Assembly (NCBI GenBank): GCA_021325115.1
Contig: JAJPHU010000332.1
Span: forward strand, 1-34,950
From: Planctomycetota bacterium
GTDB taxonomy: Bacteria > Planctomycetota > Planctomycetia > Gemmatales > Gemmataceae
Length of the DNA: 34,950 nucleotides
Direction: 5' to 3'
Part shown: positions 6,039-30,183 of the stretch, piece after piece
How positions within the stretch are numbered: position 1 is the stretch's first letter
Layout: the number at the start of each line of letters is the position of its first letter
Translations under genes and position numbers: made by a program
Notes under the pieces: model-generated
Seen by the model: the letters and a program-made list of their open reading frames with translations, nothing else
Told to the model about the DNA's origin: nothing
Databases searched by the model: none

Positions 6039-6368
6039 ATGCGACCGATTTATCATTTGGTTCCTCGCTGCGTCTGGGAGGAGAACCCCGATCAGCCGTA
6101 CTGTCCCGATTCGCTGGCGCGTGAGGGATTCATTCACTGCTCCTTTGCTGAGCAAGTGGCGTGGGCAGCGAATCGTTTCTATGCCGAGATCGTGGATTTG
6201 CTGCTTCTGCACATCGATACGGAGCGCTTGACCAGTCCTTTGCGCGAGGAAGCCTGCGATACGGGAGAAATCTTCCCGCACATCTACGGCCCTCTGAATC
6301 GAGAGGCCGTGGTGGCAGCGGAAGTGCTGACACGCGGACCGGATGGCTGGCAATATATAGGGGGATGA
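6039..6368 (+). CDS. DUF952 family protein
   Basis: This 109-aa cytosolic protein matches the DUF952 pattern: IYHLVPR near the start, then EGFIHCSFAEQV, then LLLHIDTERL and FPHIYGPLNREAVV. The family has a small fold reminiscent of ADP-ribosyl-transferring enzymes, but its biochemical function is not established to my knowledge. The start has AAGGGAGG upstream. The stop codon lies inside the left boundary of an IS3 remnant, so the last few residues (about WQYIGG) may have been altered by the rearrangement. The body of the domain looks complete. Confidence 0.85.
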   Translation: MRPIYHLVPRCVWEENPDQPYCPDSLAREGFIHCSFAEQVAWAANRFYAEIVDLLLLHIDTERLTSPLREEACDTGEIFPHIYGPLNREAVVAAEVLTRGPDGWQYIGG

Positions 6369-6542
6369 GACGGTGGCGGAGTTTGGAACGGGGCCTGGCG
6401 GCGTATTTTGCTTTTACAACCACGAGCGGCCCCACCAGGCGTTGGGCTACCGAACTCCTGCCGAGGTACATGTCGGAGAGGGCCGAAAGCCGTCAAGGAG
6501 TAGGTAAAAATCGGGTGTTTTTGGTCTTGACAACGGAGTCCA
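6358..6542 (+). mobile_element. IS3-family right-end remnant, copy 1
   Basis: This stretch is nearly identical to 14566-14748 and carries the last about 48 codons of an IS3 OrfB transposase plus the right inverted-repeat end (GGTCTTGACAACGGAGTCCA, ending at 6542). The reading frame is 6364-6507. Compared with copy 2 it has one inserted T in the gcggagtttgg stretch and a compensating loss in gtattttgc, so a short internal segment is frame-shifted and the gene is dead. After the lesions the frame again reads FYNHERPHQALGYRTPAEVH. Everything upstream (orfA, left end, DDE core) is missing. The 5' break falls at the stop codon of the DUF952 gene. Confidence 0.88.
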
Positions 6543-6676
6543 CTTCAGAGTTACAAAGGAAAGATCGAACGTCCGAGAATTCAGCCTCTGGTGGGTTGTG
6601 AGCGCCTACACGGATTTCTCATCAGGTAAGTGATCCAGCATGCGACCGAAAAGGCAATCAGCGAGCGAAAAATCCT

Positions 6677-13628: not shown

Positions 13629-13864
13629 CTCACCGCCCTCTGGAAAGAGCCTGAGGATAACAACCGGGCACGACCAGGCAAGACCAAATGACTGTTCCGT
13701 CGGGCCGTTTGTCCACGGCCTGGATGCGTCCCTTCTGTTCGCCCCGAACAACGCATCTCGGATGTAAAGACACCTTCTGGCGAGGATTCCCGCTCTATAT
13801 ATTCAGTTAGAATAAGAGATGAGTACGCTTCCGGGGCGGCCCAGACTCAGAAGGAGACATGTGT

Positions 13865-14713
13865 ATGGCCGTGGAAATCAAAGTGCCTGCCGTTGGCGAG
13901 TCGATCACGGATGGAACGATTGCGCGTTGGTTGAAAGCCAACGGCGCGGTAGTGAAAGCCAATGAGCCGGTGTGCGAAGTAGAGACCGACAAAGCGACGA
14001 CGGAAGTGATGGCCCCGGCCGGCGGGCAGCTGAGCATCGCCGTTGCGGAAGGGCAGAAAGTTGCTATCGGCGCCGTCATTGACCGGATTGAAGAGGGCGT
14101 GGCGGCTTCGTCTCCTCCTGCCTCTCCGCCTGCACCCGCAGCCAAGCGCGACAGCGACACGCGCACGCCGGCAACTAAACCGCCAGCGGCCTCGGGGCCG
14201 ATTTTGTCGCCGGTGGAGCGGCCCGGACAAATGTGGTCGGCCGACATCACTTACCTGCCCCTGCCGAGCGGGTTCATGTATCTGGCGGCGACACTGGACT
14301 GGTACAGCCGGTTAGTGGTGGCCTGGCGGTTGTCGAACACACTGGACGGGGCGTTCTGCCAGGAGATGCTGGGGGCGGCCCTGTCCAGCGGCAGGCCGGA
14401 GGTGTTCAACACCGACCAGGGAGTGCAGTTTACGGCGGTGGCATGGACGAGCCGGCTGGAGTCGGCCGGGGTGGCGGTGAGCATGGATGGGCGGGGCCGC
14501 TGCCTGGGCAACGTGTTTGTGGAGCGTCTGTGGCGGACGGTGAAGTACGAGGACGTATACTTGCAGGGGTATGAGACGGTGGCGGAGTTGGAACGGGGCT
14601 TGGCGGCGTACTTTTGCTTTTACAACCACGAGCGGCCCCACCAGGCGTTGGGCTACCGAACTCCTGCCGAGGTACATACCGGAGAGGGCCGAAAGCCGTC
14701 AAGGAGTAGGTAA
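13865..14713 (+). CDS. Chimera: 2-oxoglutarate dehydrogenase E2 lipoyl domain fused to IS3 transposase core
   Basis: This 282-aa ORF has two unrelated halves. Residues 1-77 are a lipoyl domain of the succinyltransferase (SucB/OdhB) type, with MAVEIKVPAVGES at the start and the lipoylation site ETDKATTEV (Lys43). An Ala/Pro linker follows up to GPILSP (about 116), the first residues of the E3-binding domain. From VERPGQMWSADITYLPL onward it is IS3 OrfB, with a complete DD(35)E set D127, D184 and E220. The E2 catalytic domain is absent here. I chose ATG 13865 because AAGGAG is 8 nt upstream; ATG 13859 is only 2 nt from it. The join is in frame. It is more likely a rearrangement scar than an evolved fusion, but the protein could be made. 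Confidence 0.85.
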   Translation: MAVEIKVPAVGESITDGTIARWLKANGAVVKANEPVCEVETDKATTEVMAPAGGQLSIAVAEGQKVAIGAVIDRIEEGVAASSPPASPPAPAAKRDSDTRTPATKPPAASGPILSPVERPGQMWSADITYLPLPSGFMYLAATLDWYSRLVVAWRLSNTLDGAFCQEMLGAALSSGRPEVFNTDQGVQFTAVAWTSRLESAGVAVSMDGRGRCLGNVFVERLWRTVKYEDVYLQGYETVAELERGLAAYFCFYNHERPHQALGYRTPAEVHTGEGRKPSRSR

Positions 14714-28449: not shown

Positions 28450-28593
28450 AACCACAGAAGTCACAGAGAACACAGAGAAAAGTCACCAAGGAAGATAGCG
28501 ACGAAAAGAGCACAGAGCAACGCCTTCCTTTGTGTAATTTTTCCTTGTTCCTTTTCTGAGTTCTTTCTCCGTGTTCGCTGTGACTCTGTGGTT
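28450..28593. repeat. AACCACAGA hairpin repeat, copy 1
   Basis: The left arm AACCACAGAAGTCACAGAGA (28450-28469) is matched by the right end, whose reverse complement reads AACCACAGAGTCACAGCGAA (28593-28574). The arms are about 30 bp, extending through ACACAGAGAAA. The interior is variable. A second copy is at 32069-32223. Both lie just downstream of a gene. Confidence 0.75.
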
Positions 28594-28615
28594 AATTTTT
28601 GGAGAACGTGCAGCT

Positions 28616-30010
28616 ATGGCCGAAACAACCGACCGTCCGCAGGTTCCGGGACAAGTTCCGCCGGATGCCGTGATGTCTGAGGAGGAACGAGGGGAGCGCG
28701 TGCCAGCGTCCGCGGAGAGCTATCAAGCGCTCTCACTGTTGGCGCTGGCCGCCTTTGGACTCGCCGTCGTCTACGTCCTGCTCGTGCTGGCTGGCGGCGC
28801 CGTCGCCCTGTTGGCCCGCATCCCTTGGTTGATGCCGTACTGGACTTTTTTGCTCCCTATCGCTGTCCTGGTCCTTTGCTGGGCGGCGCGGATGCGCATC
28901 CTCAACTCCGAAGGGACCCTCAGCGGCCTGGCCTTTACTACCTGGGGTTCCCGCCTCGCCATCTTGTTCGGCATTACCTATGCCGCTTATTATGTCGCCA
29001 CTTTTCTCGCCGTGCGCGGCCAAGCCATCGAGAAAGCCAATGAATTCTTCCAGAAAATTAAAGAAGATCGCCTCGATGAGGCTTTCCTGATGTCGCAGGA
29101 GACCTCCACCAGGGGCATGAGCCGCAGCGACATGCGCGATATGCTGGAATCGCGTTTCAATCAACCTGCGGCCATGCGGGGAGAGGCAGGGCCTTTCTCA
29201 CGCTTCTGTCATGAGCGCTTCGTTCGCCTTATCGAGATGGATCCCGACCAGACCACCATTGTCCCCACGGGCGTGGCTTCTTGGGAATACGGTAAGGGCG
29301 GTTATCGGATGTCCCTCACCTACCACATCGCCAATTCGCTGGTGGAGTATGACATGATCGTCGAGACATTTGGCCGCGATCCCAAACCAGGCGAGTCGAA
29401 AGGCCGACAATGGCAAGTTCTTCTCATGCGTAGCGAAACTTCTATCCTTAAGGATTCGCTCCGCAAGAAGCAGCGAGGCGAAGATTTCGATCAGAAGACG
29501 AGAATGGCCCAAAAATTCGCCGAGGATTGGGTAGCCAAAGTCAATGATTGGAATGCGCTCACGCCCGACGAGCGGGAATCTTGTTCCAAACTGATCCGCC
29601 TTGACGACAAGACGTTCTGGGCAGGCAAACAGCAACGTGCCGATATTATTCGGCGCATCCGCGCTACCTTCGAACCGAGCGACAAAAGGACCAAGACCTC
29701 GTTTAGCCTGATGATCCTGCCGGGCGCTCTCCCTCTGTTGCGTGAGAGCAACGACCGGACAACGGTATGGATTGACGTGACACTGCGTTACTCTGAAGAA
29801 GGCGGTTTCCTACCGCTGTATGTGGTGAATGGCCGGCTCGCCGTCTCTGCCCAGAGCAGTGCTGCGGCCAAGGACGTGTCAGCCTGGCGGGTCGATGCCC
29901 TGGAGGTGGAGAGCGGTCGAACTGCGCCGGAAAGGCAGCGGATGCAGCGAGGCCTCGCCAAACCGGCCTCTGCGGAAGGCGGACTCGACAAGGGACAAAC
30001 GTCGCCGTAA
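28616..30010 (+). CDS. Large membrane-anchored protein of unknown function
   Basis: This 464-aa protein has three hydrophobic segments near the N-terminus: LLALAAFGLAVVYVLLVLAG, LMPYWTFLLPIAVLVLCWAA and LAILFGITYAAYYVATFLAV. A long soluble region of about 330 residues follows, with charged motifs such as ANEFFQKIKEDRLDEAF (a TPR- or DUF4878-like start) and mixed alpha/beta predicted character. I do not recognise a catalytic motif. GGAG lies upstream of the ATG at 28616; an upstream frame to 28571 would run through the repeat end. It follows rpoZ but is separated by the hairpin repeat, so it may be transcribed separately. It may be planctomycete-specific, which is only an impression. Confidence 0.75.
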   Translation: MAETTDRPQVPGQVPPDAVMSEEERGERVPASAESYQALSLLALAAFGLAVVYVLLVLAGGAVALLARIPWLMPYWTFLLPIAVLVLCWAARMRILNSEGTLSGLAFTTWGSRLAILFGITYAAYYVATFLAVRGQAIEKANEFFQKIKEDRLDEAFLMSQETSTRGMSRSDMRDMLESRFNQPAAMRGEAGPFSRFCHERFVRLIEMDPDQTTIVPTGVASWEYGKGGYRMSLTYHIANSLVEYDMIVETFGRDPKPGESKGRQWQVLLMRSETSILKDSLRKKQRGEDFDQKTRMAQKFAEDWVAKVNDWNALTPDERESCSKLIRLDDKTFWAGKQQRADIIRRIRATFEPSDKRTKTSFSLMILPGALPLLRESNDRTTVWIDVTLRYSEEGGFLPLYVVNGRLAVSAQSSAAAKDVSAWRVDALEVESGRTAPERQRMQRGLAKPASAEGGLDKGQTSP

Positions 30011-30073: not shown

Positions 30074-30183
30074 GGCCAAGTGGCGGAATTGGCAGACGCG
30101 CTGGACTTCTTCATCGTTCGATGATAGGTGCAGCAAAATCCAGTGCCCGCAAGGGCGTGTGGGTTCGAGTCCCACCTTGGCCA
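30074..30183 (+). tRNA. tRNA-Leu with a 26-nt insertion in the anticodon loop
   Basis: All tRNA stems are intact. The acceptor GGCCAAG (30074-30080) pairs with CTTGGCC (30176-30182), with discriminator A. The D-stem is GCG/CGC with loop GAATTGGCAGA. The anticodon stem is CTGGA (30101-30105) with TCCAG (30139-30143). A class II variable arm GCCC-GCAA-GGGC and a T-arm GTGGG-TTCGAGT-CCCAC follow. The D-arm and long variable arm point to leucine. The anticodon loop is 33 nt instead of 7. Removing 26 nt leaves CTTAAAA (anticodon UAA) or CTCAAAA (anticodon CAA). No CCA is encoded. Intact stems argue against a decayed pseudogene. Confidence 0.85.
30109..30134 (+). other. Candidate mini-intron in tRNA-Leu
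   Basis: These coordinates follow the UAA reading (cut after U34); for CAA the segment is 30108-30133. It can fold as TCATC (30111-30115) with GATGA (30120-30124) around a GTTC loop, extended by CT/AG with one bulged T. It is far too small for a group I intron and does not form a strict archaeal bulge-helix-bulge. Flanks GGACTT and AAAATCC match the place where cyanobacterial tRNA-Leu(UAA) carries its group I intron. Confidence 0.55.

Follow-up and report, generated by a model that had tools for sequence, protein, structure and literature searches.

Can a bacterial leucine tRNA whose anticodon loop is interrupted by 26 nt still take part in translation and, if it does, how is the interruption dealt with? 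The question arises from a gene at 30074–30183 (forward strand) of the window, the 34,950-nt stretch of planctomycete DNA that we analysed. The Rfam tRNA model (RF00005) matched this gene end to end (49 bits, E = 1.1e-7), the sole Rfam match in the whole window, and aligned the acceptor, D, anticodon, variable and T arms with the extra length in the anticodon loop. The alignment describes a class II cloverleaf with every stem paired; the anticodon stem, formed by CTGGA (5′ side, 30101–30105) and TCCAG (3′ side, 30139–30143), encloses a loop of 33 nt (30106–30138). The gene measures 110 nt with the insert and 84 nt without it, and encodes no CCA. The class II tRNA-Leu with a 33-nt anticodon loop proposed in a preliminary description of this DNA is confirmed by the covariance-model search suggested there, which matched a tRNA over 30074–30183, and by the same 110-nt gene in a second species (below). 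ARAGORN at default settings reported no tRNA in the window, so standard annotation overlooks such genes.

The position of the insert follows from the anticodon. Both UAA and CAA had been offered, with flanks read as those of the group I intron site of cyanobacterial tRNA-Leu(UAA), U34/A35. Only CAA holds: syntenic intron-less orthologues have the loop CTCAAAA, and both insert-bearing genomes contain separate tRNA-Leu(UAA) genes, which rules out a UAA anticodon interrupted at the cyanobacterial site. The only register that gives back CTCAAAA, and thereby a CAA anticodon in a 7-nt loop once the 26 nt are removed, puts the insert (TCTTCATCGTTCGATGATAGGTGCAG, a candidate mini-intron) at 30108–30133 (+), between U33 and C34 and not at the cyanobacterial site. 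Alignment with the 84-nt orthologues accordingly divides the gene into a 5′ exon (30074–30107 (+), last base U33 at 30107) and a 3′ exon (30134–30183 (+)) that opens with the anticodon bases C34, A35 and A36.

We compared the source genome (G000; a soil planctomycete, 383 contigs, 93.7% complete) with three congeners (G001, G002 and G003). Our synteny anchor is a hypothetical protein gene (479 amino acids; 28571–30010 (+) in the window) that immediately precedes the tRNA gene in all four. Aligning the locus across relatives, as had been suggested, placed the same 110-nt gene with its insert at the syntenic position in G002, a second species of the genus (91% complete assembly; public record JAJPIY010000004.1, Planctomycetota Centralia_MAG_388), and an ordinary 84-nt tRNA-Leu with the loop CTCAAAA in G001 and G003. 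Presence in a second species, in two independent assemblies, rules out a sequencing error. Relatives with an ordinary 7-nt loop, which the preliminary description would have read as a sign of error or of a pseudogene, do exist in these two congeners; however, their gene is orthologous and intact, and the insert was therefore gained or lost rather than introduced by error.

Insert-bearing sequences number two in the genomes sampled. A leucine pattern (GGAYT, 20 to 50 nt, then AAAATCC, in a leucine D-arm context) matched G000 and G002 and no other genome among the 95 of the family or the 398 of the class, and its class I tRNA version matched none of 392 phylum genomes. Among the matches listed in the scan of genome contigs, most were ordinary tRNAs whose variable arm contains AAAATCC; further chromosomal cases may exist beyond the matches listed. 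Matches with 30-nt double palindromes, from Kiritimatiellae and at locus L177, were rejected as not comparable, being truncated tRNA-Leu 5′ halves before an intact gene. At L105 (4396–4650) and L177, tRNA-Leu 5′ halves ending in such a palindrome precede an intact tRNA-Leu, with two in tandem at L105; we read both loci as element-associated duplication. The insert is not clearly a dispersed repeat either. The tRNA itself is the only exact match to the insert core in G000 or G002, and near copies (up to three mismatches) numbered 16 forward and 6 reverse in G000, this gene included, against 6 and 2 in the reversed control, with no excess over the reversed control in G002. Elsewhere in the window, the translation of an open reading frame at 13859–14713 passes from a lipoyl-domain E2 protein at its start into an integrase-type transposase, and the end of a similar transposase lies near 6.2–6.5 kb (6039–6601); read only from their translations, both would be insertion sequences cutting a host gene.

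Between the two carriers, all 84 tRNA positions are identical, as are 23 of the 26 insert positions. The three insert differences (T3, T11 and C12 in G000, A at each in G002) fall in the loop of a small hairpin or at one edge pair. The upstream gene shows 72% protein identity and 64% identity at four-fold sites, and rtcB 93% and 66%; at a neutral identity of about 0.65 taken from four-fold sites, the probability of 84 identical positions in 84 is about 1e-16, and that of at least 23 in 26 about 0.005–0.01. The flanks (63 nt upstream, 100 nt downstream) aligned no better than shuffled sequence. Four exon positions differ from the intron-less gene of G001, all outside the anticodon arm. There is good support for a real, conserved gene under selection, and, judged from these sequence comparisons, the whole tRNA gene is under strong purifying selection since the species split. 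Neither a pseudogene nor a tRNA released from decoding would be likely to retain the letters of the anticodon loop. Because arm and loop letters that would be useless unless rejoined have stayed unchanged, we infer that the precursor RNA loses the insert; with both tRNA halves kept intact by selection, the cell probably excises it in a way for which no bacterial example is known.

Self-splicing is excluded by the size of the insert. As the preliminary description had correctly argued, 26 nt are far too short for a group I intron; the catalytic core P3–P8 (about 100 nt or more) is absent from the insert, and only a tRNA reaches the Rfam cut-offs in the window. Archaeal splicing is rejected as well: no splicing endonuclease of the archaeal/eukaryotic type (EndA, PF01974) was detected in G000–G003, with positive archaeal controls. 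The RNA ligase RtcB (PF01139) is encoded in all four congeners, with no stops in the matched stretch, and is equally present in G001 and G003, which have no insert. The suggested search for RtcB or endonuclease homologues thus yielded the former in every genome but no EndA homologue, and a role for RtcB as the ligase of the spliced halves is a guess from its presence in the genome.

The predicted folds offer a structure on which processing could act. A small hairpin does exist within the insert, although not at the coordinates first given (30109–30127): the simple hairpin, TCATC-GTTC-GATGA, occupies 30111–30124 (+), and its G002 version has 6 bp and a GTAA loop. In the minimum-free-energy fold of the precursor, in both species, the 5′ half of the anticodon arm is predicted to pair with the 3′ half of the insert and to replace the anticodon stem. 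This alternative long hairpin (30100–30134 (+)) would join GCUG.ACUU (30100–30103 and 30105–30108) to AGGU.CAGC (30126–30129 and 30131–30134), with the small hairpin on top and U33 opposite G at the 5′ junction. Shuffles of the insert alone reached both the energy and the pairing in 0.2% of cases for G000 and 0% for G002, so that, by this model, the pairing between insert and 5′ exon is non-random. The stated lack of a strict bulge-helix-bulge was borne out by minimum-energy and constrained folds: neither kind of fold showed a 4-bp helix between two 3-nt bulges at the splice sites.

We lean towards a working tRNA-Leu(CAA) with a genuine 26-nt mini-intron at a group I site, which would be excised by a host endoribonuclease and sealed by RtcB. 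On this proposal, drawn from sequence and predicted folds, the insert would draw the 5′ half of the anticodon arm into a hairpin exposing both junctions, the endoribonuclease would cut at U33/U and G/C34, and the genome-encoded RtcB would join the tRNA halves. Because mobile group I introns use U33/C34 in relatives, the insert may derive from such an intron by loss of its core, an origin that we consider plausible, or be an unrelated insertion at the same site.

The leucine tRNA set shows what is at stake in decoding. The count of isoacceptors called for in the preliminary description revealed no second intact tRNA with the same anticodon in either carrier: covariance and pattern searches of G000 and G002 found no other tRNA-Leu(CAA), in assemblies that are 91–94% complete, so that a second CAA gene could be missing from them. 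The other leucine tRNAs are UAA, UAG and CAG in G002 and, in G000, UAG, a UAA gene interrupted by a full group I intron and an odd CAG-like gene of 74 nt. Odd tRNAs with low scores, in pairs and possibly from mobile elements, occur at L041 (G000:C383), L040 (G000:C58) and L092 (G001:C253); among them is a class I tRNA of 74 nt whose anticodon is CAG. UUG accounts for 21% of leucine codons in G000, 23% in G002 and 26% in G001, and UUG/(UUA+UUG) is 0.87–0.88 in all three, with no depletion. This share and its constancy indicate that UUG decoding matters; as wobble would in principle allow tRNA-Leu(UAA) to read UUG, the CAA gene need not be essential.

Such wobble leaves room for a gene that is used unspliced, its expanded-loop product being charged and either acting as a regulatory RNA or donating leucine outside the ribosome. 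The usual determinants of leucyl-tRNA synthetase (LeuRS) are the acceptor stem, the D arm and the long variable arm, all fully conserved between the carriers, and since LeuRS does not need the anticodon, an expanded-loop tRNA would be charged. We regard this as unlikely: a role outside decoding does not predict an anticodon stem and seven loop letters unchanged relative to intron-less congeners, and UUG is heavily used, its share of UUA+UUG being undiminished.

A different route of removal would be splicing in trans, with the insert a core-less group I remnant at U33/C34 that a group I ribozyme elsewhere in the cell excises. Known bacterial tRNA group I introns interrupt cyanobacterial tRNA-Leu(UAA), proteobacterial tRNA-Arg(CCU), tRNA-Ile(CAU) and fMet. 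Searches of the relatives with RF00028 and a family-specific core model (R1), with host tRNAs identified by reading the intron flanks rather than by tool assignment, showed that tRNA genes of many family members contain group I introns: at U34/A35 of tRNA-Leu(UAA) in G000, G021 and others, and, at full length, exactly at U33/C34, the insertion site seen here, in CAU tRNAs (Ile2-like and fMet types) of many family members. G000 itself has full group I introns in tRNA-Leu(UAA) and, at 36/37, in tRNA-Arg(CCU) (L304, region G000:C39:9422-9564; L222, G000:C346:1378-1618). In G003, the tRNA-Leu(UAA) intron (L321, G003:C195) gives two partial core matches about 300 nt apart and seems to hold an HNH-like endonuclease coding stretch. 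The insert also follows a U that can face G (P1-like ACU/GGU), as U33 does in the predicted fold, and, like a group I intron, terminates in G, features that are weak alone. Against splicing in trans, neither RF00028 nor the family-specific model found a group I core in G002, and the 3′ part of the insert resembles group I 3′ ends by eye but not significantly (shuffle fractions 0.18–0.73), so derivation from such an end by similarity was rejected. We know of no precedent for trans splicing of a 26-nt intron by a group I ribozyme, which also counts against it, and we rate it as quite unlikely.

Viral genomes hold tRNA inserts of similar size. The leucine pattern matched 20 times in IMG/VR viral contigs, mostly in complete tRNA-Leu genes with inserts of 20–50 nt; in the cases parsed, the arms are intact, excision leaves CTTAAAA or CTCAAAA, and one insert is 26 nt long. 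In L325–L342 the ends of the 20–50-nt anticodon-loop inserts are often complementary, and some insert ends pair with the anticodon itself (for example, L327 and L337). The class I pattern matched more than 120 IMG/VR stretches, in which two recurrent insert architectures are visible. The first (L386, L375, L403, L412, L417, L429, L431, L456 and others) consists of inserts of 40–50 nt; those parsed by eye interrupt the anticodon stem on its 5′ strand (about 28/29) and have in common a hairpin with a conserved ACAGCAA motif after it. The motif pattern occurred in 24 of 77 unique viral inserts against 4.8 in shuffles, and some viral contigs have such inserts in several tRNAs. These inserts match no Rfam family and look like an undescribed class of tRNA intron. 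The second has the core YTCANGGYRAAGGRCCNAAANGC within an extended anticodon arm (L352, L368, L379, L388, L397, L404, L406, L408, L416 and L421), and its simple core pattern occurred in 14 of 77 inserts against 2.3 expected. For 20 viral class I loci searched against Rfam, only tRNA families reached the cut-offs, save one GOLLD RNA; the viral contig that encodes this RNA (L379, 2958–3395) also has a tRNA array that includes a tRNA with an insert. Three viral intron-bearing tRNAs gave no match to annotated phage records.

The literature holds a related case. Devoto et al. (2019; PMC6784885) reported introns in the tRNAs of Lak megaphages, which their abstract terms ‘enigmatic’; at least one of them may, according to that report, be a tRNA within a tRNA. 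Bacterial tRNA introns are described in two reviews or tool papers as self-splicing group I (or II) (PMC4033280, PMC8450103), and we found no chromosomal bacterial counterpart of the insert in the open-access literature. The earlier claim of no described bacterial precedent was too strong in view of the Lak phage introns (PMC6784885) and the viral tRNA-Leu inserts.

These parallels, both in IMG/VR and in the published Lak introns, would fit an intron of phage type acquired from a virus and removed by the same machinery as the viral inserts. We consider such an acquisition improbable: the insert does not obviously resemble the viral ones when inspected by eye, its host tRNA is a native syntenic gene and not a phage gene, and class I tRNAs with inserts of this kind were absent from the 392 phylum genomes. 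Very improbable and already disfavoured is a pseudogene, killed by an insert that would block decoding if kept and that was gained or lost within one genus and is absent from the other family members tested, with UUG now read by tRNA-Leu(UAA): neutral sites are only about 65% identical and the flanks cannot be aligned where the exons agree at 84 of 84 positions.

If the mini-intron of tRNA-Leu(CAA) is excised, its conservation in a chromosomal tRNA would require an enzyme-based tRNA splicing step in a bacterium, for a tRNA devoted to a codon that specifies one leucine in five. RtcB, widespread in bacteria, could in this way have a housekeeping substrate, and the gene provides a cellular example for the unexplained phage tRNA introns. 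More tentatively, bacteria and their viruses may possess a tRNA splicing route for introns of 20–50 nt that uses neither an intron ribozyme core nor EndA, of which the planctomycete tRNA-Leu(CAA), carrying much UUG decoding, would be a chromosomal case.

Compared with known systems, the gene shares locus and anticodon arm with the ordinary tRNA-Leu(CAA) of G001 and G003 (four nucleotide differences in 84), which lacks the insert. Like archaeal and eukaryotic tRNA introns (bulge-helix-bulge, EndA/TSEN), the insert is short, lies in the anticodon loop and has RtcB available; unlike them, it is not at 37/38 and has neither a strict bulge-helix-bulge nor an EndA homologue. With bacterial tRNA group I introns it has in common the anticodon-loop position, the identical U33/C34 junction in relatives, the preceding U and the terminal G, whereas its 26 nt (against more than 200) include no catalytic core and cannot self-splice. 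The Lak introns belong to Prevotella phage genomes rather than to a bacterial chromosome, and we liken them to the insert by gene organization and not by insert sequence; they lie in otherwise normal bacterial-type tRNA genes and are highly conserved in sequence (PMC6784885). As in those phages, an insert within a tRNA gene whose excision would restore a normal tRNA is found in the planctomycete, and a short, ribozyme-free tRNA intron of the kind hinted at in phages appears to occupy a group I site in a bacterial chromosome.
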